A DNA stretch of 64,000 bases, taken from NCBI GenBank assembly GCA_029204225.1, contig CM055097.1, positions 11,959,346-12,023,345 on the forward strand, written 5' to 3'. The translations under genes and the position numbers were made by a program. The notes below the pieces were generated by a model, which searched no databases, had not been told where the DNA came from, and saw only the letters and a program-made list of their open reading frames with translations. Within the stretch, counting starts at the first letter, position 1, and each line of letters starts with the position of its first letter. This stretch comes from Diphasiastrum complanatum. Taxonomy: Eukaryota; Streptophyta; Lycopodiopsida; Lycopodiales; Lycopodiaceae. This document shows, piece by piece, positions 3,101 to 64,000 of this stretch.

Positions 3101-3229
3101 TGTTACTGGCAATTGTGGAGAGCGTAAACCATTGAAGCGCCGAACTGTACTCTGCTGACATGAATTATTGGGAAAAGAAATACCTCCTGAAGGCCCCAAA
3201 ATATTAGATCTACTGCACAAGGTCTCCAT
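143..3229 (-). CDS. RIBA: Bifunctional riboflavin biosynthesis protein RIBA (DHBP synthase / GTP cyclohydrolase II), six exons
   Basis: The protein makes the two precursors of plastid riboflavin: DHBP from ribulose 5-phosphate (RibB half) and the pyrimidine intermediate from GTP (RibA half). I infer CDS exons 2783-3229, 2138-2359, 1576-1901, 917-1046, 510-806 and 143-397. All have GT-AG ends and consistent phases, giving about 558 residues, the usual plant RIBA length. The first ~120 residues are Ser/Arg-rich and poor in acidic residues, as in a plastid transit peptide. The RibB half shows [21 protein letters not shown] and GHTEASLDL. The RibA half shows the zinc cysteines in [18 protein letters not shown] and the RGHEGRGIG motif. 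Both halves therefore look catalytically complete, unlike some plant paralogues that lost one activity. The start is the first Met of exon 1. The promoter side faces 3230-4100, where no other gene is visible. Confidence 0.94.
451..501. repeat. Compound (GA)n/(CA)n microsatellite in RIBA intron 5
   Basis: A GA tract (451-473) runs into a CA tract (474-501) with one interruption. On the coding (minus) strand it reads GT repeats then CT repeats, starting only about 8 bases after the intron 5 donor at 508-509. Confidence 0.97.
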
Positions 3230-42979: not shown

Positions 42980-43189
42980 CTACTAGTGATTGATACTTTG
43001 GTACTACCCGTATATGATGCTTTGGTACTACCTGCAGATACTTTCTACTTGTAACACGATAAGACTTCTTGAATATAGATCAATGGTAATGAGAATCCTC
43101 CTCAAGTTCACTTTGAAGATGTTAACAATGACTTAAATGCAGAAGGAATCTTTAAGAATTTCGAGTAAACCAACACTGTATTGAGCTGC

Positions 43190-44160
43190 ACCAGTGTCGG
43201 GTAAGATTCAAACGAGCTCACCCAGAAGTGCAGATATCACTTAGATGCTTTGAGGCGTTGAAGCCTTATTTTGTCCAGAAACTGAAGGAGCGGTACACCT
43301 GTTGCTGTGTGTACCATATGCAAATGATATATTTTAAGGAGGCATTTAATCATATGAGACAAAACAAGTTTGGTCATCATGGAAAGGATCATGCATGCAC
43401 ATGTTCCATCTACTGCAAAATTCAGGAATCGGATATTTGCAAAGCAAACCAATCTGTTTGCCCCAGCATCAGCAATATGTGGGAATCGCTTTTATGTGCA
43501 AAGCCTCCTAATTCAGAATACCATGCAAAAAAATGCTTGTTCGGGGACTGTAGTAAATGCGGCATTTGCATGTTGTCATTATGTCCCTCTAAGACATTAG
43601 TGGACAGCAGGGAGTTGTCTGTGAGGATTTTTACAGACGTTGCATCAGGGTTTGTTGATGAGGGTGGTTCTATCAAGAAGAGAAATGATTTGGTAGTGCA
43701 AAGAATGCGGAGCAGTGCTTTTGTTGACCTGGTTTCACCACATCTAAAAAACTTCATCAAGCATAACTTTGTAATTCGGTGGCAGTCACAGCATTTTAAA
43801 GACTACTTGCTGAAATTTCCTTCGGATGTTGTTGTTTCAATCATTGACTTTGTAGAGAATTATTCGTTCAAGATGCAAAACGAGATACAATCCATGCACT
43901 GGCTGGTCTAATCAGGTCACGATACTTGTGCACATAACGTACGTCAAAAACTCTATAGGTGCAGTTGAGACTCTTCATTTTTACGTATCAGACGATAAGC
44001 TCCATGACACCTTATTCATACAACACTGTCTACTACTACATGACAATTGGTTGAAAGAGAACGGGTATAATCTGAGGTGTCATTGGGTGTGGTCATACGG
44101 TGCGGCGTCCCAATTCAAAGCTCGAAGGCCTTTCTTCTTCATGGCCAGGTATATTTGTTG
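43190..44160 (+). pseudogene. Cysteine-rich, possibly DDE-type transposase-like gene (decayed)
   Basis: The main frame (about 43228-43911) has LKPYFVQKLKERYTCCCVYH, a cysteine cluster CLFGDCSKCGICMLSLC, RWQSQHFKDYLLKFP and IDFVENYSFKMQNEIQSMHW. After a frameshift near 43905 it continues as QVTILVHITYV, YVSDDKLHDTLFIQHC and HWVWSYGAASQFKARRPF. I recall uncharacterised animal and lower-plant proteins with DFAENY, SDDxxHD and SDGxxxQFK blocks, possibly transposases; this is from memory and not checked. The last block has Tyr where I expect Asp (SYG for SDG). A likely intron donor (gccag|gtatat) follows near 44150. GGTAC-rich repeats lie on both sides. Confidence 0.55.
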
Positions 44161-44209
44161 GGGGTTCTCACTATCTCTATTATTATTACTCTGTAGCTTT
44201 TAGGTTTGT

Positions 44210-44390
44210 TACTTCAGATAATACCAAAATTGGTACTGAACTATAAGACTTTAACTACATAGTCCATCTCATAGTACCAAACTACACTGTTCAGGAGTAC
44301 CAATTTTGGTACTATTTTCCTTATAGATATGGTACCAAACTGGAACTATACAGGACACCCAAATATAGTACCAAACTGGTAGTAGACAGG
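44210..44390. repeat. GGTAC-rich repeat downstream of the transposase-like gene
   Basis: Variants of taccaaa(a/c)tggtact recur several times here, matching the family at 37540-38080 in both orientations. If the donor near 44150 is real, they lie in an intron of the transposase-like gene. Confidence 0.6.
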
Positions 44391-44624
44391 ACATTAAGTT
44401 CGTAACCATGGGTATTGTTCACAAGCATTGTGTATCGCAGCCAACATAAAAATAAAAAATCTAACAATTTGTTCGTTTTTTTGTCAGATATTATCACTTG
44501 ACAGGTCTGCAAATGATGCATAATTTCTCCGCCTCAGGCCATGAAAAAGATGAGCACAACGGAGCGAGCGCGGTCATCAAAAAAACTCTTACTCACGAGG
44601 AGTTGAAACTAGACGGTTGGCCCT

Positions 44625-45075
44625 TGTCAGATCAATCATACTAGGTACGACGCATTTCATTTGGCTAATCACAAGTCGACACGTGTTCCTTCACCAGTCC
44701 TCCACACGTGCAAATTTTTTTTTATAAATATGTCTTTTTGGGCTCAGATTTTCACGCAAATTCACGATTGCTTTGCCAGATATCGATATCAAGCATGTCG
44801 CTTGTTCTCATTACATCTCGTTGGCTAATATGCGCCTGGATCCGATACTGCATCGTCCGATATCGCATTCGAGCGCGTCTCGCAAATTTCTTTTTTTTGC
44901 TCGTTTTCCTTGCGCTCAGATCCGATACTCCAACTTCAAATATCTCTCTCGAGCGCATGTTGATTTGACGTGTTTGTCGGACCTGGGGTTTAGGGTTTAG
45001 GGTTCAGTTCTGTTATTTTTGTTTAAAATGTCTAATTTTGAATCCAGTTTGCTTTCTTTTTTTAATGATTTTTTG
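44625..45075 (+). repeat. Promoter/leader repeat, copy a (orphaned)
   Basis: It aligns along its whole length with 45237-45695 (offset about 605-612). Shared blocks include gtacgacgcattt, gtcgacacgtg, ccagtcctccaca, ttttcacgcaaatt, gatccgatactgcatc and tctctctcgagcgca. Copy b leads into a coding frame; copy a ends about where that frame would begin and has no coding sequence after it. Confidence 0.85.
44680..44730 (+). promoter_or_regulatory. G-boxes and TATA box of copy a
   Basis: CACGTG occurs at 44680-44685 and 44705-44710. A TATA-like tataaata starts at 44723, twelve bases after the second box. The same layout recurs at 45294-45345, 48093-48120 and 59875-59898. Confidence 0.6.
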
Positions 45076-45236
45076 CAAATTTTTGCACGTGTGAAAAGAC
45101 GGCCTAGACACGTGACATCAGATGCCTAGACAACGTGGAAATTCCGTACGGATAATGATGACCCAATTATGGGAACACGTGGGCTGAGACACGTAAGCGA
45201 ATCCCTTATCGACGCGTGTCATTCTCGCACGTGACA

Positions 45237-45695
45237 GATGTTAGATCAATCATTCAAGGTACGATGCATTTATTTTGGCCAATCACATGTCGACACGTGT
45301 TTTTTTGCCAGTCCTCCACATGTAGAAATTTTTTTATATAAATAGGTCTTTTCCGGCTCGGATTTTCACGCAAATTTAGGATTGCTTTGCCGGATATCGA
45401 TTTCAAGCGCACCGCTTTCTCTCATTACGTCTCGTTGACTATTATGTGTCTGGATCCGATACTGCATCCTCTGGTATCGCATTCAAGCACATTTTGTATT
45501 TCTTTTCTTTCCTGCTCATTGTTCTTGCGCTCGAATCTGATACTCCAGCTTCCAATATCTCTCTCGAGCGCACGTTGCCTTGACGTGCTTGTCTGACCTG
45601 GGGTTTGCGCCTGAGAGCGATATTTGGAACTTCAGTTCTATTATTTTTGTATAAATTATCTAATTTTGAATCCAGTTTGTTTTTTTTTTTTAATG
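45237..45695 (+). repeat. Promoter/leader repeat, copy b (upstream of gene A1)
   Basis: See copy a. This copy has a CCAAT-like ggccaatcac, CACGTG at 45294-45299, CACATG at 45317-45322 and tatataaata from 45335. It is followed by a long leader and the A1 coding frame. Confidence 0.85.
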
Positions 45696-46204
45696 AATTT
45701 GGTATTACTGATATGTTGGACTATTTCAAATCTCTTTTTCTTTTTATCCTACCTTCTATAACTGAGAGCCCTGGTGTGGAGGCATTCTCTGGGATATATC
45801 TCAGATTTTAGTCCCTACTCAGTACTCCGTTATTCAGGTCTCAGAATAAAAACATGATTCATTATCAGGACCTGGTGGCACTCGACAAGCATATCTACAA
45901 AGCTAAGCTTGGCAGAATGTTTACCAAGTTACATAATGATTTCAAGTTTGTAGATGAGTGCCCAATTCACAATAAAAAATGTAGATTTGTTGATTTTCAG
46001 TCTGTTTTTATTTTATTTTTCCTTTTGTTAAGTATTTTTGACGATTCAGACTTTGTGCCCTCCACTTCTGAAACAGCTTCTTCTAGTGGTACAAAGTCTG
46101 AAAAGTCAAATATTGTAGATATAGATACCTTTTTTATTGACACGAGTGTTCATTTAGATGATTGTTCTGATTCGATCCTGCTCGAAATAGGGCTACTTTT
46201 ATAG
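45605..46204 (+). pseudogene. Gene A1: unknown family with C-x2-[CH]-x3-C motif, copy 1
   Basis: I do not recognise the family. A1 aligns with the minus-strand gene A2 (53.6-55.1 kb): NEFGIT at the start, a ~50-residue block ending GRMFTKLHNDF (A2: DRMFTKLFDLF), then CPIHNKKCRFVDFQS (A2: CPYCNKKCRLVEYQS). The cysteines and one histidine suggest a small metal site. An in-frame stop replaces an Arg of A2 near 45810. The Asp/Ser-rich tail ends at 46204. Between FQS and the acidic tail lies a ~30-base T-rich stretch that is either a hydrophobic segment or a very short intron. It converges with gene C. Confidence 0.5.
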
Positions 46205-46219
46205 GCCCTAGAACACCCA

Positions 46220-47420
46220 CTACCCGTCCACCATCAAAGACTCTATTATTTTACACTTTACATTTGAAATCCTATTGTTCATCATGATACGCTCAGTGGA
46301 TTTGCAAGTCAATATTGTGCCCAATGACATTTCTAGTGAAGCATTGTCTTTAATATTCCGAGGAGCTACTAATGCAGATCTGCAAAAAAAACAAATAGTT
46401 AACAGAATATCACCATAGTTGAAATTAAATCCAAATGTCATTGAAAAACTTACAAAAATCAGAATATGCTTACTTGAATGCACATATCCTTCTATTTCGA
46501 TAACCTCCTTTTGAAAGTGTTTAAATATCCTTGCAACTTTGCGACTTTCGCTTCTCACTTTCAGCCTTCTTCTTTTCCAAATCCACATCCTTCAATAATT
46601 GTAAGTTTTCAATATGAATAGACTGTAAGACTGATTGCATTTGCTCTAGTTCTGATTTGATATTGATTGTTATCTTCTGTAATGATTCATTGTTTTTTTT
46701 TAAGTTGTTCATTTTCTTCTAACGTCTTTTGGAGATGACAATCTCTATTCTGACAATAAGAGGATATCCGAATTAACTCACCTTCTAAAAAGTGAACTTT
46801 ATTCATATAAAGTTGTTTTCCATGGTTCTGCAATCTTTCACAATATCCTAGTAATCCACTATGCCCATTGCATATCCATGTAACTAAATAAGTTATTGAA
46901 GAGAATGTGGGATGTGTCAAAGTGCTTGGATCTTGTGGATATAATGTTCCATCTATCTACAAATCCAAGTTTTTTTTTCCTTCTGTCTTGTAACGAGAAC
47001 GATCCTCAACAGATATTTGAATTCCTTTGCCTCCTCTTCTCTGCAAAGGTGCCAAATCAATAGGGATATCCACATGTAGATGATACAATGTCATCATCAA
47101 AAAAATAATAGAGTAATCAGTTGCATCAAAGTACTATGACCAGATTCTATGAAGCAAAACAAAATACTCATCTTTGACTATATTATATACTATGTACGAT
47201 CAACCCAATCTCCAAGTTTGTATGCTTGATTCAAATTTGGAAATGCCACTCATTTTTTCATTTCAATAGGTAGTTGGCGATCATATTTCCATTCTCGTGG
47301 AAGGAATGCATATGAAAACATTTTGCAATTTTTTCTGATTCAAATTTGGGGATGGCGGTCATATTCTAGATCCAGTGAAAATATTGCTCTTTTCGTAACC
47401 AATGGAGAGAATATTTTTGA
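46220..47420 (-). pseudogene. Gene C: coiled-coil protein of unknown family (broken)
   Basis: In coding order: an exon at about 47180-47420 with FSYAFLPREWKYDRQLPIE and FPNLNQAYKLGDWVDRT, a basic stretch near 47000 (RRGGKGIQISVEDRSRYK), then the 46475-46920 part with FSSITYLVTWICNGHSGLLG and a heptad-like coiled coil from HFLEGELIRI to LEKKKAESEKRKSQS. A last exon at 46220-46381 (SALVAPRNIKDNASLEM) follows a gcag acceptor. Frameshifts occur at A/T runs near 46690 and 46970, and a nonsense codon near 46955. No known domain recognised. It converges with A1 and diverges from U1. Confidence 0.45.
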
Positions 47421-47613
47421 ATTTAGTCAAGTTATATTGCGAACTGTTAACAGTTCTTAACTGTGACTATAGACACTGTGGGTAGATCATTGGAGTTGGG
47501 GAGGCCTTGGGAGTGGTGTGGGCAAGCAAATAAACAATATTGTTTTTTTTTTTATTTTGATATTTTTCTATATCCTACATGGCATTCCTTAAAGGGTCTT
47601 TTTGATATTGAGA

Positions 47614-47939: not shown

Positions 47940-48125
47940 TGGTTTTTGGTTCCAAGTGCGAATGACACGCGTCGATTAGGGATTTGCACACGTGTCTCAG
48001 TCCACGTGGCCTTATAATTGGCTCATCATTGTCAGTACAGACATTCCACGTGGTCTAATCGTCTGACGACATGTGTCTCGACCGTCTTTTCACACGTGCA
48101 AAAATTTCGTATATATAAGTCCTCG
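47940..48125 (+). promoter_or_regulatory. G-box-rich promoter of U1 (possibly shared with gene C)
   Basis: Near-palindromic CACGTG or related boxes occur near 47965 (CGCG variant), 47988, 48003, 48047, 48069 (CATG variant) and 48093-48098. The last one stands 13 bases before tatataag at 48112. The interval lies between divergent genes C and U1 and could serve both. The 5' leader that follows has three GATATCG-type motifs (near 48169, 48252, 48331). Confidence 0.55.
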
Positions 48126-48426: not shown

Positions 48427-50437
48427 ATGATGGCCAGGACAAAATCCACCACCCGTGCCATCACCACTGTACAGCCATCATGTTTCCATGTTCCCCCTAG
48501 TACTGGCCGTAGGCATGGCAGGAAGCAAGTCTGGCTGAGGGGAATAAAAAAACTCCAGAGATCAACTGAATTGTTGATCCCTAGACTCCTTTCGGCCGAT
48601 CTGTACGAAATGTCACTCTGTCACTTGGGTTGGATGTTCATTTTGCCGTGACAGCCATGTAGGCCTTGCAGGGTGCTGCAGCAGATTTTTTGTCCCAGTT
48701 TTTTGAGGATACTTGTCTTTTGGCAGTGCATGGTAAGCGTGTCACCATCATGCCAAAGGATTTTGTCATTCTCAAAAGGCTTCGGGACAGATATTCTAGT
48801 CTGCATGTTGATAATGCCAGCACCTCCAGAGACCTACCTCTGGATAGAACCAACGTGCCTACTACCTCTAGGAGGAAGAGAAAGCAGGTTGTCCCCAAGA
48901 AGGCTGGATCTCGAAGGCCAGCTGCTTCCCTTCCTCCTAGACGTATCCCGGCCAAGAGACCCCATGTCTTCCTGACCTCTGAGTCAGATGCTGAAAAATT
49001 TGACTCAGATTGAGAATCTTCACCCAGTCCTCCTCCAGTTATTCGTCCAGTTCCTCTGCAGGTTTCATCACCAAAAGTGTTGATTACCCAAGAGGAGCTA
49101 GACAGAATAACAGAGAAATCTGTAAATATTTTTTCCACTTCTGTTTCTGCTCCTGTACATAGTATTTTTGTGAAAATTCCATACGATCCAGCCCAGGTTT
49201 TTTTTTTTATTCTGACCATTATAATCAATACGAGGCCTACCTAGCTAACAAAATTGATCTTCTCGACAATTTTTTTGATTTTTTTCTTCCAGATACACGT
49301 AGAAGCTTTAGATTAGGTCCCAAATTTTGTGCCGAGCTAAAAGATAAGACCTCAGAAATTTCAGATGCAATAGTAGAGGCTGGAGTTTCTTTTTTACAGA
49401 ATAGTATTAGTTTCAATTCTCATGGTACAGTTTTTGTAGTTAGTCCATTTTTCATGGGAGCGGTAAAGGCGAAAGAAGCCAATCTTGGAGAGGCTGTCTA
49501 TTTTATTGAGTGCAGTCCTATGGCAAAATTTTATTTGATTCCATATTTTAACGATATTTGTATCTTGGATGTTGCAGTCGGCATTGGAGCCTAAACATTC
49601 TTTTTATAAAGATAAATAAGGAGGGAGTATCAAATTTTCTATGTGTAAAATTAAACTCAGCTACAAATACACATAGAGAATTTAATTCTCTATTTCATGA
49701 TGTCCTTCGGAAAATATCGACAACGGCAACTTCAATTGGAGATATAACCATTAAATCTCTCAAAGTATATTCAATTTATCTCTGATATGCATGTATTTCT
49801 TTTTTAATTCAAATGTATCGTCATAGCATGAATAAAATCTCTATCATAATATTACTAATTTTCATTTTATATATGCAGTGTGTACAACAAAATGACGCTT
49901 TTAGTTGTGCATGGTTCGTCCTGTACAATACGAAGCTATTTTTTGAATGGTATAATTTACAAACGGATATAGATATTGAAAAGGTAATATTCTATTCATT
50001 TGTAGTTCATTTCATTCTGATTCATATTTTATTACTATCATTGTTTGTAATTTGCTGATTCTCGTGTTTTGTGATGACAGTTCACTCTTGAGCCGTATAC
50101 TCTTGATGATGTATATAGATTTCGGCAAGAGTTGATCAGAACCTTTGCCCAGTACGGTGTAATCATTGCACCTGCAATCAAGGGCCCTCAAAAGGAAGCT
50201 GCTCCTGCCTTAACAGCCTTTCAGGTTGTTCAGGATGCATATCTTATTTTATATGATAAAAAAGGAATAAAAGTCCTTCCTAATACAGAGGAAGGCAATT
50301 TTGTAGCAGATATTCCTCTTGTCTAAAAAGGCATTGAGACCCTTTCTGAAACAGAGGAGGACGAGATTATAAAAGGAGCTATTGCTTTATCAGTTTCTAA
50401 TACTGATATAAAAAAATATAGAAAAAAAATTGATTGA
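48427..50437 (+). pseudogene. Gene U1: histone H3-like fold fused to Ulp1/C48-like protease
   Basis: The N-terminus reads MARTK as in histone H3 (start 48427 or 48430). The H3 core follows: KKLQRSTELLIPR, then after a one-base shift PFGRSVRN, a TAG codon, and ALQGAAADFLSQFFEDT, VHGKRVTIMPKD and RLRDRY. KRVTIMPKD is identical to H3. Where canonical H3 ends, a Lys/Arg/Pro/Ser-rich linker leads to a C48 protease-like domain: ELKDKTSEISDAIVEAGVSF, RHWSLNILFI (catalytic His), CVKLNSATNTHREF, and QQNDAFSCAWFVLYNTKLFF (oxyanion Gln, catalytic Cys). Introns 49765-49878 and 49984-50080 have GT-AG ends and phase 0. Other breaks are a TGA near 49011, a shift at an 11-T run near 49208, and a shift before RHW near 49575. 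If intact, a nuclear chromatin-linked Ubl protease is plausible, as inference. Confidence 0.72.
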
Positions 50438-50620: not shown

Positions 50621-51990
50621 TCAATGTTCTTCCATAAATTGGATTGTTTCGTCAATATCTCTGCATTTGATCTCGAGCTCATGTCTTTTACGTACCTGCA
50701 TAAAATTAATACAAAGTTAGTTAGAATTAATGCAGAGTTTGTATTAGAAAGTTTCGATTGAAACTATTCATAAAAGATCGAGTGTTTACAATCACTTATG
50801 AGTTTACCATTGAAAATGAATCTGAAGTCTGAAAGTACATCATCTTGTAGGAGAAATAGTTCCCGCCGGATGTAGTTTAGACTCCAATCTTCTTCCACCT
50901 CAACACATGTCAAAACGATATCATTGTATATAATTTCAATATTTTTTTGTTTTGAATGTCCACTAGCTTCCAAGTCTTGATCGAGTGGCACTCATTTACC
51001 TTTATTTTTTTTTCATCTTTGATAATGGAAGCATAAGCTCAACATTTGTTTTTCAATTTGATAACGGAAGCACATGAAAGACATTTTAATTCTGCATTCT
51101 ATCTCTCCATCTGATCTTTTGTCCCAGCCTTCATCCATAAGTTCAGATAATATCTGATAAATTTTTGCATACAAACATCGTTGGAGTTTTGTGTACATTG
51201 ACACTTGAAAAGAAATCCACAAATATATTCAAGGAAATAAACCAACTCAATCTGACTGTTTTTTTATCTCGTGTTCATTTTTAATAAATTTTTTACATCA
51301 TTATATATCTTGCAACGAAATGATTCTAAAACTATAGCATCTGGTGCAATCCATTCATCACTTTCAAAGCTAGGTAATGGAATTGGTACTATTTGTCCAA
51401 AATTTTCTTTTGTATCTGGAATGTACATTGATTCATAAAAAAAAATTCCACCAACAACTAGATCTTTTACAGTTCTACCTCGATATTGCAGCTGTCCAAT
51501 ATCAGTATGCATAACATCTAACACACATGCTAAAGATCCACTCGGCTCTCATTCATTTATGTTAGATGGATATAAATCTACAAGAGAAAAATGATCAAAT
51601 TGGCAAATTTACTACTAGATATTTATGAATGACAAAAATCAAAGTATCAAAAATATCAATACTCATAGTTGCTTTTTTTGTGATCCTGACGGTTGAATCC
51701 TTGCACATTTATCTCTGAATGCATATATACATGTTGGACTAGAATTTCAGAAATAGATTTTCCTCCTGATGATGTTCTGAAATCCAAAATTCTGGCCTTC
51801 CAATAAGATCAAAATGATAGTTTTGACCTTTTTCTTTTTCGAAATGCTCCTCTTGATGATGGATGCATCAAAACCCAAGAGTTTTTTAAATATTTTCTTG
51901 GCACCCATAATCCATTATCATCTATCTTGTTGAATAGAAGCACAGAGTCGATTGAGGAGCACGGCTTCCTTGATGGCGCGTAATTTGCAT
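50621..51990 (-). pseudogene. Gene B1: unknown protein with C-terminal ubiquitin-like (beta-grasp) segment
   Basis: Homologous along its length to B2 (62.2-63.6 kb). In coding order: SSIDSVLLFNKIDD, SWVLMHPSSRGAF, SISEILVQHVYMHSEI, then an exon with LDVMHTDIGQLQYRGRTVKD and GIFFYESMYIP, an exon with ILSELMDEGWDKR, and the C-terminal IEIIYNDIVLTCVEVEEDW, LNYIRREL, DFRFIFNGKL joined to VRKRHELEIKCRDIDE. This last block has the strand/IR-helix/strand rhythm of ubiquitin-like folds. TGA codons replace a Trp (NE-stop-EP, EWEP in B2) and a Lys-like position. The donor after NGKL reads ATAAGT where B2 has GTAAGT. Function unknown; the position converging on U1 suggests a partnership. Confidence 0.5.
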
Positions 51991-52149: not shown

Positions 52150-52498
52150 ACATTAATGGTACATCGATTTTCTCATCTCAACCATCTGTCATATTCATTT
52201 TCAATATTTTTGGGTCTCTTCGGACAGTGATGAGCTGGAAGGGCAGGCCTCATCAACCAATAGCATTTCCACATGCTGCCCGATGAAACAACAATATATT
52301 TAAAAAGTTTTTATTTTATTTATATTTAAAAAATTCTTACGTTACGTAGAACCCCGAAGCTAAGGTTTCAGTTGGTCCACATGGCAACGAAAATAAGAAA
52401 AAAAAATAAAAAAGCATCTTTTTCAAAGGCCCTCGTCGGGCTCTAAGTTTCTCTAATGCGGTGCTATATCAAAACGCCCTTGTTTGTACTGCATGAAA
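52150..52498. other. Divergent intergenic region between B1 and D
   Basis: No gene. The segment aaaataaaaaagcatctttttcaaaggccc (around 52410-52435) resembles the end of the B2 upstream region (63965-64000), so it may be a conserved promoter or boundary of the B genes. A gttacgtaga word is also shared (52340s and 63910s). Confidence 0.5.
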
Positions 52499-53420
52499 AT
52501 GGCAAAAGATATAACTAGGAGTACAGGAATTACTAGAGAATATGCAAATTCAAACTGGAAGCCTGTGCTGCCTATCCCCTTAAAAAATGTGCATGTTTGC
52601 ACTCTTCATGCATAAGTTAGATTAATAGAAAGGATCATTTATCTTCATATAGTTTTTGCTTGGAATACTAAGCCAGCATCATTAGCAAAGGAAGCTATCT
52701 CTCGATTAGAAGATGTTTTATCAAAAGCAAGACTCCATAAAGGACATGTCAAAATTCATAAAGATGAAAAGCTTTCAAGAAAGAATGGGAACATGCCAAC
52801 TAAGCCAAGCATAGGAGGAGCAAAAGCACGTCGTTTCCTATCAAATCATACTGGTAAGGCTTCTAATATTTAAGACTCAGTCTAGACAGATATTATTGCT
52901 GTCACTCAGGACTTCGAGAAAGACGGCAAAATCAGAGTACTAAAAAATGATGTATGGAAAAAGCTTGATAGTATGATTGCTATTTTAAGAAAAGAAAAAT
53001 ACTCTGATATTGATAAGAAAGTTGTCCAAAGGACTTGTGTCGAGTTTGTTAATGCAGTATCAAAAGCATGGAGAGAAGATCACATCACTCATTACATGGT
53101 TAGTATAAAATTTTTAAAATGCTTTCAAATTTTCATATATATTTAGATCCAAACATAAGACTAACATTATGATTTTGACATATGCAGCACATACTAAGAG
53201 ATCATACAAATTTTGTGCAAATACATATGGAAGCTTGAGTGTATGGTCATCACAAGGGATGGAGAAGTCACACTGGCAAGCACGAGCATCATTTCATCGA
53301 AATACACAACATCAAGGAACCAATGAAAAATGAAACTACAGTTGTCAATCGTTTCAGTGGTTCTACCGCAGAGTTCAGATTCGACATATAACAAAGTCCA
53401 CACAATACAACAAGTTTAAG
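52499..53420 (+). pseudogene. Gene D: decayed gene with CTLHA and WSSQG-EKSH motifs
   Basis: The start MAKDITRSTG leads to NVHVCTLHA, a TAA, then VRLIERIIYLHIVFAWNTK in the same frame. Next come KGHVKIHKDEKLS, KPSIGGAKARRFL and a helical region ending WREDHITHYM. A GT-AG intron (53099-53187, phase 0) joins this to HILRDHTNFVQIH. After a frameshift the sequence reads YGSLSVWSSQGMEKSHWQAR and FQWFYRRVQIRH. I recall the VWSSQGxEKSH and WFYRRxQ patterns only loosely, from uncharacterised transposon-like proteins. At least two stops and one frameshift. It converges on A2. Confidence 0.5.
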
Positions 53421-53593: not shown

Positions 53594-55130
53594 CTATTCA
53601 TCATCAGATCTTGTGTCAGATTCTATGGCAGTATTGTCATGAAGAAATTCTCTGCTAGCATATGCATCTAATAGATGTGCATTATCCTTATTTCCACTAA
53701 GCTCAATATAAGTGGAATCCAATGAATAATGGGAGCTCCTTAAAGGAACATTTCCATCAGTAAAGCCTAAAATGTTCATAACATAAGATCTTTTGACAAA
53801 AATGATCCCATTTGTCTTAACAAATTTATGTCCTCCTAGGTAAAATGATAAAGCTTTCACTGCCATTATAAGACTCTCCCCGACTGGGCTCAGCTTGGAA
53901 TGAGCAATATAGATCTCATTCTTCAGGAAATGGCTAAGATAGCGGCCCAGTCCATTGTCCCTCTGGAACGAGGATGCGTGTTGTCTGAAACCACCTCATC
54001 TCGCAGCAAAATCATCTATTATGAGAGCATCCTGCAATAGGAAATATGTTAACAAAAACACATTTAGTGATTAAAAACATTCTAATGCAAGGAAGTTTAA
54101 ACACTTACACATTCTTGATCATCAACAACAATTAAATTAGGATGATCAATATAATGACCACGTACTGAAGGGAAATCATCAGTGAAATGCATTAATGATG
54201 GACGAGGAAAGCCCATCTGGGATTGAAATGCCGTGAATTCTTCATCGGAAGGTCTACCTCGCCCATCCTCACCTATATTTGATAAAGTCTTAGTCAGGCA
54301 TTCTTCACTGGTCATAAGTCCCTCCTCATCATCAAAATCAATACCACCAACAAGGTCATCTGTTTCAAAATTTACAAAGTCGGAGAATTCGAAAATTGTG
54401 CTGGATAATAAACATAGAACCTCGTCTTCACGATAGTCAAAAAATTTACATAAATCAGCAGTAGTAAAATATAATCGTCATTAATATAATGTACAGAAAA
54501 ATTGAAAAGACATTTCGACTCTTCTATAGGGTTGGATTCATCATCAGATGTATTTTGGCCAATAAAGAATCCATCAGATGTATTTTGGCCAATAAAAGAA
54601 TCTCGAAGAACATCAGTATTTACATCAATAAAGTCACTTTCCTTATCAGGAGTGTCGATAAGAAAGTGACTGATATCCTTAATAGCTGATTGAACAGAGG
54701 ATGATGCAAAAGGAGGGTCAGCAACAGAAACTTGCTCATCATCTGAGATCTGAACTAATAGGAAAAGTACGAAACCACTTTGATATTCAACCAATCGACA
54801 TTTCTTGTTGCAATACGGACACATTGAACTGCTTTTGAAAAGATCAAACAATTTGGTGAACATTCTATCCAGTCTATGTCTGAAAGTTGGGAAGAAATGA
54901 ACAAAATCAGTATAATACATGTACTGGAATGGACTTATGGAGAAAACAGGCTTACTAAGTATATCTCTGAATCTAACATAATGTTCATAAAATACATCGA
55001 AATTTGGTTGTGCAATCATGAAAACATGTAGATATGTCCTGAATAGGCTGTGGAAGTAGTCTAGGTTTAGTAATCCCAAATTCACTAAGAAATGAACTCA
55101 AGCCTGAATCTCGTGAGGATCCATGGCAAT
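53594..55130 (-). pseudogene. Gene A2: unknown family, copy 2 (homologous to A1)
   Basis: In coding order: SEFGIT near 55080, a frameshift, DYFHSLFRTYLHVFM, FYEHYVRFRDILSKPVF, DRMFTKLFDLF, CPYCNKKCRLVEYQS, a possible very short intron, then an Asp/Ser-rich region with a 10-residue duplication (IGQNTSD). Further exons hold GEDGRGRPSDEEF and SVRGHYIDHPNLIVVDDQEC (54097-54315), then after an intron DALIIDDFAAR, a stop, and the C-terminal MAVKALSFYLGGHKFVKTNG to the stop at 53594. A1 has only the N-terminal half. Function unknown; the Cys motif may bind a metal. Confidence 0.5.
54542..54601. repeat. 30-bp tandem duplication in A2
   Basis: catcagatgtattttggcca begins at 54542 and again at 54572. 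The second unit has one extra A. It duplicates about ten codons of the acidic region. Confidence 0.92.
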
Positions 55131-55279
55131 AATGTGAATATCGCACTTGTGCGCGAGGGAGAACTGAAACAAAACTAACTATCAAGATGGCACATAAGAG
55201 GGATATGTACGGCAGGCAGATACCGAATATCGCACTTGTGTCTTTATTTTGATGGGGGGTTGGTCTAGCCAAAACGTCC

Positions 55280-56470
55280 TAAAAGAGTCAAGGGGCCCCA
55301 CCTCTAATGACGGTTTGGCCCTACGTGAGCAATAGAGAAATTGCCACTTCCAACCCTGATGGCCTTCTCTATTGCCCCGTGCTCTCCAACCGATGAGAGT
55401 TTTCCAGGCTCTCAGAGATACGGTTGCAAGGAGGGGGTGCTAGTACTTTTGGTTGCAATGATTCACTTTCTAGGGTCACAGTTCCGTAAAACTTCTGATC
55501 ACTAATTCGCGTTAGGATCTTGCTAATATCTCTTTCCCCATTGAATTCGGCTTACAGTTAGTAAAAATCTTACATGGGCTAGAAACCGATTTACTATTTA
55601 TGATGTGCTCGTGGGGTGCAAGTTATATGCACCGCTTTGTTTGCTAAGCGGCAGTATTTTTGCCGACCGTCAGGTCTAGGTATTTCGCTAGACAGTACCG
55701 ACGGCGGGTGTGACTAGTGTGACGCTTTAACCAAGGTGGTGTATTTCAACCACGGATGGTGGACAACCCGCTCTGGTGTTTCACAGAGGTCGGGTCCAGT
55801 TGACACGCTTCATAATTGACAAACCGGAAGAAACGCTTCAAAACTTGACGATTCCTTATAGCCGTTTAATAAATCTAACTCAGCAAAATATAAACTACTC
55901 AATCTACAATTCTCTCCGTACAACACATTCTAAATCAGTACAAAACAGAGTTATTTACGTAACACTTTCACTAGACAAGTTGGAAATAGGCACTCATTGT
56001 TCTAATTAGCCATGCCGCATTTGTTTATAATATATTACAATTCTGAACTGAGTTTGAATTAATGCTAAAACCGATTCACTATAAAAGCTCTCAAGTATTC
56101 ACTTGGTTATATAAATACAACCTCAAAAGGCAATCGTAGCAAAACACAATCTGTATGACTCGTTCTTTTAAATCGATGTACTTGATCCCTTAAAAACTTG
56201 CCTTACTAGAACATCTGCAAAAATCTCACTCCAATCACAAGTGATTAAGGCTATAATATCACACTACGAAGGGATTGACCAACAGAACTTCATGAAACTG
56301 AAATGAATAGACAGTGCAAATAGATTAAGTAAACGCTTACCTCAATGAATAGTTAGGTAGCTGGTTTGCCGTAAGAACCCCTTAGTCATGAATGTCTCAA
56401 AGTCCCGGTCGTTTTGCCTTTACTGTCTCGCATGGCTTCCTGGAAGGCGATGGGTAGGTGCTTGAATGAT
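55280..56470. other. Noncoding interval
   Basis: No gene is recognised. Two atatcgcacttgtg words lie just to the left (near 55139 and 55228), in the plus orientation, resembling those at 59940. Confidence 0.45.
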
Positions 56471-56602
56471 GGCCGAGTATAGAAGAATGCTAAAAATTAG
56501 CAACAACAATGCCTTGGATCTCTGCCTCAAAGGTAAGGCCGAGTATAGAAGAATGCTAAAAATTAGCAACAACAATGCCTTGGATCTCTGCCTCAAAGGT
56601 AA
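56471..56602. repeat. Perfect 66-bp tandem duplication
   Basis: The unit ggccgagtatagaagaatgc... at 56471-56536 is repeated without change at 56537-56602. Confidence 0.97.
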
Positions 56603-56859
56603 GGTGGATTCGCCATAGCGGTGCGCTCAGCTTAGCTGGAAAATAGTACAGGTATTCTGTGATGGTCACTGAATTAGATTCATAGGCTTGACCCAGCATT
56701 GGACAACAGGGTGGAGTTTATGCTCCCTGAGTTTCCATTATGCTCTCTCTGTCAATGATAGGATGCTCTAGGATTCACAACGTTTTGCATAGAAGGGCTC
56801 TCCATAGTGTAATGAATGCCCACTGGGAATGATGTTAGCAGACAGACAATGCACAGGGA

Positions 56860-57330
56860 GAAACAAAAGGTAGATGGCAGGTGGGCACATGACAGCGATG
56901 AGGTAGCGATCAGCTGAGGGCAGCAAGCAGTTGATGGGGCAGCAAGGAGCTATAGTAGTCTGCCAGGAATCCCTCCAGCGAGCACACAGAGGAGTGCAAC
57001 AGACAGTTCGCAGGGCCAGCAGGTGAGGCAGCGAGCAACTGCAGGTAGATCGCAGGTGAAGCAACGGAGGCAGAGGTAGGTGAGGCAGCAAGCACTTGTA
57101 GGAGCAACAAACAGAGGCAGACAGGCAGACATGCAGAAAGACCTCCAGAGAGCACACTGAAGGCAGAGGTAGCGGGGAGATCGCAGGGCCAGCAAGGCAG
57201 ATTGCAGTAAGTGAGGCAGCGAGGAGCTGCAGGTAGAGGTAAGGCAACAAGATCTGCAGGAGCAGCGAACAAAGGCAGGGTAGCGCACAAAGGTAGCCTC
57301 CAACGAGCTGTTCCAAGCTCTCCACAGATG
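56860..57330. repeat. Degenerate GCAG/AGGCAG-rich tandem repeat
   Basis: Words such as aggcagcgagcagctgcaggtaga and cagaggtagg recur with variation. All three minus-strand frames are open for long distances with Leu/Cys/Pro-rich nonsense, which is what a repeat of this composition produces. Confidence 0.7.
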
Positions 57331-57479
57331 CAACGAGGGTACAGGGCCGTAGACAGCAAGTGTGCAAGTCGTCGAGTCATCTTAAATGGAAAACAGGGCT
57401 TGACAGTTCCTTTGCATATTATGAGTAGCGATCAGAGGCCAACGATGGTTCCTTTCATCGCTTGTCGTCTTTGTCTCAT

Positions 57480-59500
57480 TGTTTGATTAAGTAAATGTAC
57501 TAGTGGTGCTCACACAACTACGAAAATGACTTATCATCACATTACACTGCTTCACTCTCCTTCTTCACATCAAAACTCAATAGGTAAACAAGTCTCTCCG
57601 AGTATTTACCTATAAACTCATTCCCTCACACCCTTTTCTTCTCAGGCAAACCAACACTTTCAATCTCGTTCACAAAAACCAATGTCATGACTCTTGTATT
57701 GAAACAAGAATCCTAACAAGAGTCCAACCAAGCGAGAAATAATAGCCTAATCACCCAATAATGACTCTTCAATCAACTAACCAAGTAGGAAACAAGCATT
57801 ACTAAATTTCCATCCACCATCATCCAACTACAAGAATCAAACACCATCAACCTACTTCCATCATTCAACCATTAGCAAAACCTTGGTATCCCTCAATCAA
57901 TCATCAATCAAAAGACTTCCTTCTTACCATGCACAACCAAATCATACAAGCAATCACTCCAACTTCGACGTTACCCACTCAATGCACTCAAAAGTACTCA
58001 CTTTTTTTCTCAATGCAAAATCAAACACTCCATGATGCACTCCTACTAGAGATGAGATTCAAGCAATAACCACCAACTCCCATAGCGAACTCTAACATGG
58101 AGCAACAACATCCACAATCACTAATATCAAAATGGAACTAACTTCCAAGCATCCTCAAGCAAGCAAGTTCTCATCAAAAAGACTCTCAACCAACATCACA
58201 TCAAAACTATCACATCAAATTCATCAAACTCTCCACTCTCAACTTAGCAACTATCAACATCATCCCATTATCCAACTATCATATCATCATCCAACTATCA
58301 AATTATCAAATCACAAAAGCACTAACATCCGAATACACTAACTCACAAAAGCACTAACATCCAAATACACTAACATTTGAAATACAAGGAGTTGGCTCCT
58401 TCTGATAGGAAAATCCAATGCATCCCCTTCACAATGTCATCTTGCCATTCTTCATGTCCTTCAAGCCCTCTTTGCCATTTGTCCTCAACCCATTTGATAG
58501 TACACCTAGTGGCCTCTATAAGAGAGTGGGGGAGTGGTGCATTCAAGGCTCTTTTCCAAAATTAGCCAAGACGCCATTTTTGTCAAAGGCTAGGGAGGCC
58601 ATTCAAGTTTCTCCTTTTGTACACCCTAGAAGCCCAAAATGTCAATGGCTAGTGGGTGTACCTCCCAAACTTTTTAGCCTCCAAGGTGGTTTGGCATTTA
58701 TTATCCAAATTTTGGGTGAGGCCTTTTTTAAATCCCTATTTTTAGTAGGCGACTTTCATTTTTTCTTTGGGTACCTTCATTTTTGGCCTTTCTTCATTTT
58801 TTCAAGGGTCGTGTGCCTACTGCTCATTTGTTTGGGTTTTTGGCATGTTGGGTAACCACTTGGCCCACACATTTCGTTAATTGTCCGTAAATTGTCCAAA
58901 CTTTGTCGTTAGGGTTTCTGTGACTTATTGACACTGAATCCATATTTCCCGGTCCGGTTTTTACCCGAAACTTTTCTTTCTCGATTTTTTCTTCTGTGGT
59001 TGACTTTTCGGCATTCATGACTAGGGCTCCACGACAACACGGTTTCTCTGAAAAATACACTGAGTGATCATATATTAGTAAAAATGGACTCAGTACATGG
59101 TGAGATTTTAGCACGGTCATACCGGCTATTTTTTTACAACTGGCCATTTTTTAGAAAAGCGGTAAAATATTTACCGGCCATTTCTAAGGCCGCAAAATTT
59201 GCTCTAGCCTCATTTAGGACGGGCTGGGACCCAATTCTAGGTGGACCGGCACTTTTGGCTTGGTCTTACAAAACTTGACCACATAATATTTTTGATGGTT
59301 TTTTCGAAAGTCAATTTCTTACTTTTAAACTATGTCTAGCCACTTTAGGATGGGCTGGGACCCAATTTCGAGGCAAATTTGTGACGATTTTTCTCTAATA
59401 ACCGGGTTTTTACATGCCGATTTTTTCAATTATTGCAAACTTAAACTTCAATATTAGCCCGATTTTCGTGCAAAAATATTGGCTAACAGTGCGTAGGTAG
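57480..59500. other. Noncoding interval with simple repeats
   Basis: 57.5-58.4 kb is an A/C-rich low-complexity stretch with a 32-bp tandem duplication (58311-58342, 58343-58374). Two copies of gggctgggacccaatt (near 59222 and 59352) mark a diverged duplication. A 145-codon frame at 58418-58855 has no domain and unlikely composition. Confidence 0.5.
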
Positions 59501-60202: not shown

Positions 60203-61928
60203 ATGTCCATGGATAGGAGAAAGCAGAAAAGGAGGGACTTCTTCTCTCATGGCTCATCCTCAGCCCCTGCGGTTGCCATTACACCACCCGGTAGACCTAG
60301 AACGCGCAACCGCAGCAGGTGGCTCTCTGAGATACGCAAGTATCAGAGATCAACAGCTTTGTTGATCCCAAGAGCTCCATTCTATCGTGCTGTCCAAAAC
60401 ATAACAAGAAATGATCTCAGACAGCTAGTTAAATTCACACCCAGTGCTCTTTAGTGCCTTCAGGAGGCTGCTGAAGATTACATTAGTCTTTTTTTTTGAG
60501 GATTCTCTTTTCCTTGTAATCCATTCCAAGAGAGTCACCATAATGCCCAAGGATTTTCAGCTCCTGATGAGAATGAGGGATAGGTATTGTAGGTTACACA
60601 TATCTCAGCCTGCTGCTCCTAGACCAACTCCTCTAGATAGGATTGATCTACCTACGAAACGTCCTAGGAAGCAGACAGCCCCCAAGAGAGCTCCGAAGAA
60701 AGTAAGGAGGGTAGACACCACAGATTCTGTGAAGCCTAACCCGGAATCCATTGTATGATAATGCTGCTATTGATAATGTTGTAAATATAGCTACATCTGT
60801 TTTGGATACCCCTTTAATTCATGTAGATACTACACATCCACCTCCTCCTCCTCCTCCAAATTTTTATACATATATAGATTCGGATGATTATCTTAAATTT
60901 GAGAAATACATATCTGATGCTATAGATACAATTGGTACTCCTTTTTGTTTTAGACTAGATGAACTTGATTTTAGTATTAATTTTAGAGTTCTAGATTGCT
61001 TGGATCTCAAAGACAGACGGGCTTCTATAAATGATCATGTGATAGAGTCCGGGCTTACACTCTTGGAATATGACATTGCAAGAGATTCATCCAATGAGTT
61101 GCTGGTGCTGAGTAACTTTCTGCTTCAAGCCTTCAAGGAGAATAATGACACAATTGTCACAGTGTCTGACAAGTGGATTCACACCAGCAACAAAGTATCT
61201 ACTCATCCCTTATCATACGAAGTAAGATATATTAAATGCTTCTTGATGTTTTATGCATTAACATGGCATTGTCAATGGAAATAGTTCTCAGAATTGCAGC
61301 TAAGAAATTTCAATCTTATTTTGCAGTGACCATTGGAGTTTAAACTTGATCTCTATTAGAGATCTGTAGATAATATTATTAAAGGTTTTTGTGTCAAGAT
61401 GAATTCGATGAGAAATACACATAGGATGTAGGATATATACCTTCCATATCTAAGTAAATATATTCATACAGATGTTTCCCATCCCGTGGACTGGCAGATT
61501 GTCAGTTTTGGAGGTAAACTCCGTCTTTCTGAACAGCATTTTGAAATCAGTATTCTAATGTAATTGTTTCATTCTAATTCATTTTGTTTCATAATTGATT
61601 TCTTGTGTGCTGAATTATTTTGCAGTCACCCCAGCAAAATGATTCATTCAGCTGTGGGTGGTACACATTATACAATGCAAAGTTATTTTTTGAGTGGTTT
61701 CAACCTTCAAACAAGATGTGATATTTTTAAGATAATAAATTCTATTTATTTTTATTTTGGAATCATGATTAGTTTTCTATTTTGTTGATGTTTTTGGCCA
61801 TTACTAATACATGATTGTTCTATTTTGCAGTTTACACTTCTGAGTACACATCAAGCCAAGTGTACAGATTTAGACAAGAAATTATCTTGAGTATACAAGC
61901 TAGGGCAAGCTTCAGCCTCCGTTATTGA
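60203..61928 (+). pseudogene. Gene U2: histone H3-like fold fused to Ulp1/C48-like protease, second copy
   Basis: Start at 60203 or 60209 (MDRRKQKRR). A basic tail is followed by the H3-like core: SEIRKYQRSTALLIPRAPF, LVKFTPSAL, a TAG codon, CLQEAAEDYISLFF, a one-T excess at 60489-60497, then VIHSKRVTIMPKDFQLLMRM. A Lys/Pro-rich linker ends NPESIV; a small frame shift leads to YDNAAIDNVV, a run of seven prolines, and the protease-like part: CLDLKDRRASINDHVIESGL, DHWSLNLISI (His), CVKMNSMRNTHRM, QQNDSFSCGWYTLYNAKLFF (Gln, Cys) and VYRFRQEII. At least two introns (donors near 61221 and 61514). Both copies share architecture but carry mostly different lesions. Converges on B2. Confidence 0.7.
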
Positions 61929-62161: not shown

Positions 62162-63600
62162 CTATTGTCTCTCCCACATTGTGATTGTTGTAGGTAGATC
62201 TTTGCAGCACGTTATCAGCTCATGTCTTTTTTCGGCATCTGTGACATGGCAAATATTAGTGAATGTGCAATTGTAAATGATGGACATTTTCTATGATTTT
62301 GTTCTATTTTTGAAATGGCAATAAATATAAAGTACTTACGAGTCTTCCGTTGATGATAAATCTTGAAATATGTTGATAGATTGGTTTGTAATAGCATGGA
62401 GGCTCTGTTCTGATAAAATCAAACTCCAATGCTCTCTCCACCTCAACCATAGTCAAATATTCCTCATTGTAGATAATGTTTATCTCCATTCGGTTTTTGT
62501 GTGACCATTTAGTTCACAGTCTTGATCCAGTGGTAGCCATGTACTTTTCAATTTCTTGTATCTTTGGTAGCTAAATGTGAGACTGAGCATTTGCTTTTTG
62601 ATATGATAACGAAAGATCATTGAGAACTTTTTAATCTGTATTTTATGTCATTATTTGTTTTTACTATCCCAACCTTGATCCATGAGATCTGACAAAGTCT
62701 CATTTGATAAATCCTTGCAAACAAATAAAGTTGGTGTCCTACAAACACTAGCACTCGAGAAAAAATCAACAAATATATGTAATGAGATAAACCAACTTAG
62801 GTGAACAATTTTCGAGCCTGTGCTTATCTTCATAGCATTTCTAATATCAAAAGAGTAGCGTGCATCTCAAGGATTTAGAAGCAATGCTGTCAAGAGTAGG
62901 CCACTCATCACTTTGGAAAACCAGGCAAAGGATTTGCTTCGAGCTTGCCAAAACTTCCATCTGTGGCATATATATATATTCATAAAAATAGATACCACAA
63001 TCTGCAAGCTCCCTTTGGACTCTTCCTCTGTATTGTAGCTTTCCAACATCAGAGTGGAATCACGTCTAATATTTTTGCAAGTGATTGTGCGGGCTCCCAT
63101 TCACTTATGTCTGATGGGTATAAATCTGAAAGAAAAAAAACAATGTTGAAGCATTTAAGAAAGTCATAATCTGAAGAGCATCAATAAAGAAAATCACCTA
63201 TGATTGTTGTAGAGTGGCATATGTTTTGATATACTTACAATTTACATTTTTTATGATCATGAGGATGGATATCATGTACTTTGATTTCTGAATGCATATA
63301 TACATGTTGTACTAAGACTTCTGATATAGATTGACCTCTCGGGGTAGTCTTAAACTCCAAATTTTTTGCTTTCCAATAAGATTTGTAAGTCATTTTTGCT
63401 CTTTCTTTTGTCGAAAATTGCCCTTTGATGATGGATGCACCAATACCCATGAGTTCTTCGTTATTTTTGTTGGCTTCCAGTTATCAGCTTCATCTTTCTC
63501 ATTGTAAAGAATCACAGACTCGATTGTAGATATGGGTCCTCCTTGCCATTGCTATTTTCAAAAGGCTTGGGCACCAAAAAATCTCTCTAATATGATACTT
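62162..63600 (-). pseudogene. Gene B2: unknown protein with ubiquitin-like C-terminal segment, second copy
   Basis: Aligned with B1: GPISTIESV, NSWVLVHPSSKG, SYWKAKNLEFKTTPRGQSIS, VLVQHVYMHSEIKVHD, then DLYPSDISEWEPAQSLAKIL, GKLQYRGRVQREL, FYEYIYMP, LSDLMDQGWDSK, and MEINIIYNEEYLTMVEVERAL, SRFIINGRL. A GT-AG intron then leads to EKRHELITCCKDLPTT and the stop at 62162. Frameshifts lie near 63000, at the last splice junction and in the first exon. The Trp lost in B1 is kept here. Function unknown. Confidence 0.48.
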
Positions 63601-64000
63601 AATTTCAATTTTTTGTATCACATTTAATCTAATGTGAATGCCAACATAGTCCACAGTTACTGCGTATACCATATTTTATGTAAATGTACATACTATATTT
63701 CTAAAACTGTAACTAGTATAGTTAGAAAATCTCATTATACTAACCAGCATAGTCAAGTAAATTTAACTTGAGGTATTGACATCGGGCAGATTAGCACGTG
63801 TTCGGGGCAGGAAGAAGAAACCAATGGGATACGTCCATGCTGCTCGGACACAAATTTCAAAGTTTTCTATATTGCATTTTTAATTTTTTTAGCTAATTTG
63901 AACTATGTTACGTAGATTTCAAATCTTGCATTTTCATTGGGCCTGGGTGACGGTCGAAACTAAAGAAAAAAATAAAAGTATCTTTACAAAGGGTCTTTTT
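63601..64000. other. B2 upstream region, noncoding
   Basis: No gene. It ends in aaaataaaagtatctttacaaagggtc at the window edge, matching in order the 52410-52435 region upstream of B1. Confidence 0.45.

Follow-up and report, generated by a model that had tools for sequence, protein, structure and literature searches.

A histone H3-like fold fused to a C48-like protease among the cargo of a DNA transposon in Diphasiastrum complanatum

Proteases, DNA demethylases and SET enzymes are known cargo of transposons: excerpts of three papers describe Ulp1/C48 or chromatin-enzyme genes in Ginger1, MULEs and CryptonF/S, together with TET/JBP and SET cargo (PMC2836005, PMC3212892, PMC12730594), and for Ulp1 an action on element proteins or on repair factors during transposition has been proposed (PMC2836005, excerpt). 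The element described here resembles these systems in joining a mobile element to an accessory deconjugase or epigenetic gene; it differs in that its protease is fused to a histone, a kind of cargo that the excerpts do not mention. A further point of reference is the CMCT clade (EnSpm/CACTA, Mirage, Chapaev and Plavaka), for which CA..TG termini, C(2)C and H(3-4)H motifs and target duplications of 2-5 bp are given in an excerpt of PMC12730594.

The locus lies in a window of 64,000 nucleotides of Diphasiastrum complanatum (assembly GCA_029204225.1, contig CM055097.1, positions 11,959,346 to 12,023,345), which holds two copies, U1 and U2, of what we call the U gene. DNA transposons with accessory genes are well known, and we have not seen histone-protease cargo described; we know of no transposon that carries a histone. 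A literature search found no paper on an H3/Ulp1 fusion, although such a search tests absence from print only weakly.

The fusion in U1 and in uninterrupted copies

The initial annotation of U1 placed an H3-like domain and a Ulp1-type protease in a single gene. All of the landmarks that it quoted are present (MARTK at 48430, QRSTELLIPR, FFEDT, KRVTIMPKD, HWSLN at 49582, CVKLNS, and QQNDAFSC at 49885), and the H3-like part, read through its breaks, is a histone fold that matches PF00125 at E=2.5e-14, beyond chance, with CENP-A (63.8 bits) and H3 (62.8 bits) as its best matches in the PDB. U1 itself is a pseudogene: its reading frame shifts and is interrupted by TAG and TGA codons, and the intron before HWSLN is shortened and decayed (Table 1). 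Its protease part, when read through, scored 20.3 bits against PF02902 (E=5.5e-4), just below the cut-off of 20.7, and the unjoined pieces gave no Pfam match. This part is 39% identical to that of L029, a member of the beta family to which U2 belongs, and 31% identical to that of a further subfamily, delta; by sequence, U1 is a member of its own subfamily.

That both domains belong to one gene is supported by single frames crossing the junction in other copies, but by none in U1. In the beta copies L029 and L030, exon 1 is an open frame of 340 amino acids (337 from the Met) that runs from the H3 fold through the linker to the start of the protease domain, and splicing at three GT-AG introns, with sites read from the sequence, yields uninterrupted proteins of 491 and 479 amino acids, respectively. 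When compared with the histone and Peptidase_C48 profiles, the check suggested in the initial annotation, both of these spliced proteins passed both cut-offs (Histone: 1.5e-24, 87.0 bits for L029 and 3.1e-24, 86.0 bits for L030, cut-off 26.4; Peptidase_C48: 7.9e-9, 36.1 bits and 1.3e-7, 32.1 bits, cut-off 20.7). PF00125 was also matched by L024 (99.6 bits) and L043 (83.3 bits; cut-off 26.4), and a single frame joins the H3 fold to the protease domain over 297 amino acids in L024 and over a 363-amino-acid exon 1 in L042. The fusion is likewise present in the divergent delta subfamily (L039, L042, L043 and L044), where the intron before the His is in phase 2 in the three copies examined, as it is in L029 and L030. 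The protease part of L043 is 28-31% identical to those of beta and U1 (E 5e-38 to 2e-33); the L043 protein alone did not reach the Pfam protease family and aligns with beta at 7e-35. Among loci picked by their H3 or H3-linker part alone, protease similarity was found in 8/8 beta and 4/4 delta loci. Read at the level of sequence, an H3 fold and a C48-like protease are indeed fused.

The protease part resembles Ulp1/SENP enzymes (Peptidase C48, PF02902) in its profile score, above the cut-off in the two uninterrupted beta copies, and in carrying His, Gln and Cys in order. The best solved match to an uninterrupted protein was yeast Ulp1 (1EUV, E=0.0026), with these three residues aligned; in an alignment of five copies the His is conserved in all, and Gln and Cys in the four that reach that part (L042 ends earlier). 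It differs from these enzymes in sitting behind an H3 fold and in having Asn for Asp. The His, Gln and Cys named in the initial annotation as Ulp1-type landmarks are borne out, while the remaining one is a conserved Asn (M/L-N-S, 5/5 aligned rows) that pairs with the Ulp1 Asp by motif, at a place where the HMMER alignment is gapped; the catalytic Asp is conserved in none of the rows. Activity is not assured, because Asn stands where Ulp1 has Asp. In L021 and L025 the catalytic Cys is replaced by Tyr. A protein database search with the protease part found no related protein (527 candidates, none at E<=1), and in a search with the whole read-through, histones swamped the result (579 matches, 7,976 candidates scored), with at most 34% of the query covered among the best 120 matches.

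The H3-like part has the full H3 fold and, in U1 and the beta copies compared, is 45-56% identical to host H3.1. An H3-like start was found in 25 of 30 element copies (28 loci, U1 and U2), and the MARTKQTAR start of H3 is intact or almost so in alpha, gamma and delta (alpha and gamma being families described below). Residue 4 is Lys in all 25, in part because the search pattern demanded Lys or Arg at position 4 and Arg at position 8. Position 9 was free in the pattern and is Asp, Asn, Gly, Glu, Leu or Ala, and Lys in 0/25, unlike host H3, which has K9. The same pattern search found no start in L011, L022, L024, L028 and L040; L024 has K4, with Thr at 8 and Asp at 9. In 10 of the 25 copies an open frame connects the start to the histone fold; no such frame does so in 10 of 11 alpha copies, in gamma, in two beta loci and in U1 and U2. 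An in-frame upstream Met is also present in alpha copies, gamma, L042, U1 and U2. Further differences from H3 are the divergent remainder of the tail, a two-residue shortening, with Trp, ahead of helix aN in alpha, beta and U1, and the long C-terminal extension that carries the protease. The loop RVT[IL] is conserved in the element H3 fold.

Some copies carry traits of CENH3. L043 and L044 have a loop-1 insertion and Trp in place of an H3 Phe, L042 has the Trp only, beta has a one-residue insertion without the Trp, and alpha has neither. RW and VTLM occur in the delta copies L042, L043 and L044, and DSMLC in L043 and L044; these motifs and the loop-1 insertion presumably resemble Arabidopsis CENH3, and LIPRAPF in alpha and beta is likewise taken to resemble plant CENH3. 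Delta L042 has its best PDB score with H3. In a 17-row tree, a branch (88/90) separates the element histones from both H3 and CENH3, and the fused histones of beta, delta and U1 group together (92/87); both supports are below the strict mark of the tool, and two plant CENH3 rows are provisional sequences. A CENH3 of the host was sought in the genome, was not found and is absent from the tree.

The carrier transposon, its relatives and its copies

The U gene is the cargo of a high-copy DNA transposon, which also carries a transposase-like gene and two further genes. Comparison of copies placed the right end of the element at ...GATATTGAGAACTCCTCTAATG, and its inverse was found as the left end in two of the three elements extended leftwards (L025 and L030, not L021). 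The termini are CA..TG inverted repeats, and L025 and L030, in which both ends are present, measure 7,755 and 8,009 bases. The gene order is B(+), A(-), U(+), X(-), with gene X not detectable in L030. On contig C1, a terminal pair 9,451 bases apart encloses a match to the catalytic exon. Three further terminal pairs were chosen by terminal pattern and do not count as independent; among them, a target duplication of TCA was seen in one and single bases in the other two. L030 is flanked by AC, and the flanks of L025 show no duplication.

Gene B contains candidate D, D, C(2)C, H(4)H and E residues, the D and E assigned by motif alone; CLYC and HVCTLH in beta, and CIYC and HFCTMH in alpha, lie between the second D and the last E. 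These motifs, together with the CA..TG ends, fit the CMCT clade as set out in the excerpt of PMC12730594, and this placement of the carrier is likely. It differs from CMCT transposons in its histone cargo, in its ill-defined target duplications and in the absence of a Pfam transposase match, no significant one having been found when the gene B pieces were scanned.

Two further families, the sister family alpha and the family gamma, carry H3-like cargo. The alpha members (L009-L012, L014-L017, L019, L020, L022, L023, L027, L028 and L040) encode a second kind of histone cargo, a proline-rich protein that ends in an H3 fold and has no protease, and their genes are related to those of beta (X 30%, B 49% and the H3 domain 49% identical); the gene-A proteins of alpha and beta show no detectable likeness at E 1e-3. 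Protease similarity was found in 0 of 15 alpha loci, L040 being only 3 kb long, and in 0 of 1 gamma (tblastn, E 1e-4), so not all relatives need the protease. Given an H3 fold without protease in alpha, and the groupings of element histones and of fused histones in the tree, the elements may have carried H3 before the fusion arose. In gamma (L013:4117-4806, plus strand), the H3-like domain adjoins the family's own relative of gene A; its start, MARTKQTAREP, does not share one frame with the fold, and another piece resembling H3 occupies about 6694-6935.

The window's own genome (1.74 Gb, 5,176 contigs) was searched for further copies. A 34-base pattern for the catalytic-Cys exon, with two mismatches allowed, gave 1,018 matches, and a pattern for the transposon terminal repeat gave 1,755; the reversed pattern gave 0 in both cases. 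The histone profile returned 153 matches (6,325 candidates, 150 scored), among which, as listed, the first 13 are canonical H3 (163.7-165 bits) and the others score 82.8-109.5 bits; three lower-scoring rows are partial matches, and the two that were read are intron-split host H3.3-like genes. Twenty of the other loci, picked mostly for long open frames, were fetched and comprise 14 alpha, 5 beta and 1 gamma. With a beta query, all 150 copies scored out of 7,528 candidates matched, giving at least 150 copies at 76% identity or more; 37 of these are free of stops and 113 have at least one in-frame stop (136 TAG, 32 TAA and 18 TGA) in the part matched, which spans at most 212 codons. Recoding of TAG was considered and rejected: at the TAG codon common to U1 and U2, L029 has CAA and L030 has CAG (Gln), and among the one-step codons of the first 212, CAG is the commonest (7 and 6, versus 1-2 for CAA and 1 each for CGA and TGG), so that ordinary C-to-T decay suffices. 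When viral contigs were scanned with the L030 protein, five stretches matched by pattern and none of them is a relative.

Between lineages, both domains are under purifying selection. Pooled over seven beta copies, dN/dS was 0.20 for H3, 0.29 for the N-terminal part of the protease, and 0.51 for both the tail and the linker; since several of the seven frames are cut short, L021, L024, L029 and L030 supply most of the protease value, and what is aligned in the 20-codon protease comparison of L026 with L024 is a TA repeat. In delta, comparison of L042 with L043 or L044 shows silent change near saturation, against replacement change of 0.19-0.20 for H3 and 0.33 for the protease part. The excess of silent change is absent between L024 and L025, and in the tail between L043 and L044.

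Possible function of the fusion protein

H3K9 methylation silences plant transposons, and a K9-less histone joined to a deconjugase would therefore oppose silencing. With modest confidence, we lean towards seeing U1 as the decayed accessory gene of a transposon, whose product, an H3-like part with K4 and no K9 followed by a basic linker and a C48/Ulp1-like cysteine protease domain, would enter chromatin, deconjugate and so counter silencing. The H3 part would pair with host H4 and enter nucleosomes, and the protease would thereby be brought onto the chromatin of the element or of its target sites. There it could strip host factors for silencing or repair of SUMO or a ubiquitin-like tag, or trim proteins of the element, which might then escape silencing and move. 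The 'chromatin-tethered Ubl protease' proposed in the initial annotation is upheld as regards the fusion, through profiles, single frames and selection on both sides, but U1 is dead and the gene is the cargo of a transposon; we infer that an uninterrupted fusion protein would cleave a Ubl tag and tether to chromatin. A wider form of this proposal, which we put forward tentatively and think unlikely to hold in full, is that a plant transposon superfamily encodes its own K4-keeping, K9-less H3, to which one lineage added a SUMO-protease-like enzyme, giving nucleosomes that could not be silenced in the usual way and silencing factors stripped of SUMO where they act.

The histone fold might instead only bind DNA or the TIR, and the protease only mature the A, B or X proteins or free the transposase complex, without silencing as a target. 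Ulp1/C48 domains occur in other transposons, where a role in transposition has been suggested (PMC2836005, PMC3212892, excerpts), and the promoter-like stretches of the window share repeats, both of which suit this account; the purifying selection on the H3 fold and its RVT[IL] loop fit H4 pairing, K4 is kept, and we regard the account as doubtful. An origin of the H3 part from centromeric CENH3, which would aim the element at centromeric chromatin, is suggested by RW and VTLM in L042-L044, by the loop-1 insertion and DSMLC in L043 and L044 and by LIPRAPF in alpha and beta, all judged against provisional CENH3 sequences, and by CENP-A being the best PDB match of U1, by 1 bit. It is nevertheless improbable: for U2 and delta L042 the top PDB match is H3, the tree, built without a host CENH3, leaves the element histones unjoined to CENH3, and the copies listed are spread over many contigs. 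A functionless chance capture, with part of a histone and the remains of a protease as passive passengers, would fit the broken state of U1 and U2 and the in-frame stops of 113 of the 150 scored copies. This we find scarcely credible, given that the fusion is conserved in divergent subfamilies whose proteases are 28-31% identical (beta/U1 versus delta L043), that dN/dS is below 1 between lineages and that the same phase-2 intron is present.

An anti-silencing role is, on what the sequences suggest, our preferred reading, and the undisrupted copies suggest a genomic parasite that may alter DNA packaging. If the histone is deposited, this would be a direct case of such a parasite editing the nucleosome to escape H3K9-based silencing, and of a histone that delivers a deSUMOylase. 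Because so many copies lie in one assembled genome, where they sit, how old they are and whether they are expressed can be tested directly.

The window as a nest of broken elements

The region of the window around U1 and U2 is a nest of broken elements (Table 1). U2, a second broken copy at 60.2-61.9 kb, has its parts in the same order as U1, and its H3 part, read through, matches PF00125 at E=3e-26 and has its best PDB score with H3. A TAG at one codon of the H3 fold is common to U1 and U2, and the other breaks of U2 are at different places. A structure model covering part of the U2 histone reached a mean pLDDT of 58, not good enough for use. The U1 element probably ends, as judged from where beta homology resumes, against the transposase-like gene of the U2-bearing beta element.

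Table 1 Features around U1 and U2 in the 64,000-nucleotide window
Feature	Positions	Strand	Remarks
Gene A1, N-terminal part	45692..46204	+	Homology
Inverted left end (TIR side) and 5' part of gene B, beta element	46226..47589	-	Homology, terminal repeat
U1 H3-like part	48430..48815	+	Start MARTKSTTRA; frame change near 48.63 kb; TAG 48660-48662; PF00125
U1 basic linker	48816..49215	+	TGA 49011-49013; frame change at T run near 49.2 kb
U1 Ulp1-like domain, N-terminal part, and decayed first intron	49216..49577	+	Intron compared with other copies
U1 exon 2, HWSLN ... CVKLNS	49578..49764	+	His; Asn at Ulp1 Asp place; ends read from sequence
U1 exon 3, CVQQNDAFSCAW	49879..49983	+	Gln and Cys; ends read from sequence
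U1 exon 4	50081..50326	+	Acceptor read from sequence
Gene X1	50767..51954	-	Homologous to gene X in beta and alpha elements
Probable end of U1 element (...CTCTAATG)	52421..52458	+	Abuts beta transposase-like gene; beta homology resumes at 52459
Gene B2, 3' part of DDE transposase-like gene, beta element	52459..53400	+	Homology
Gene A2, beta element	53594..55128	-	Divergent from U2
U2 exon 1: H3-like domain, linker, Ulp1 N-terminal part	60209..61230	+	TAG 60452-60454; frame changes
U2 exons 2-4: HWSLN, QQNDSFSCGW	61327..61920	+	Stops in exon 2
Gene X2	62215..63600	-	Homology comparison
Right terminal repeat, first bases, beta element	63988..64000	+	Cut by window end

The C-terminal part of gene X shows, by eye, a ubiquitin-like pattern (window 50767-50991 and L010:6922-7194, both minus strand). 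A ubiquitin-like fold there is no more than a lead, which neither model nor profile supported: an AlphaFold model of the window copies reached a mean pLDDT of only 44, and a profile built from six X ends retrieved no PDB chain of the ubiquitin-like kind. An insertion at 55240-59490, absent from the other beta copies compared, lies between gene A2 and U2 and splits the divergent promoter shared by these two genes. Promoter-like stretches holding CACGTG boxes and GATATCG..GAGCGC units are repeated in direct and inverted copies at 44625-45072, 45239-45700 and 45077-45224 / 47960-48107. To their left, a fragment at 43156-44620 (plus strand), without a Pfam match in 43156-43911, contains WSYGAASQFK and SASGHEKDEHNGASA, which presumably belong to another type of transposase. 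At the left edge of the window (504-3229, minus strand) lie RibA-like riboflavin-biosynthesis reading frames, presumably those of a host gene.
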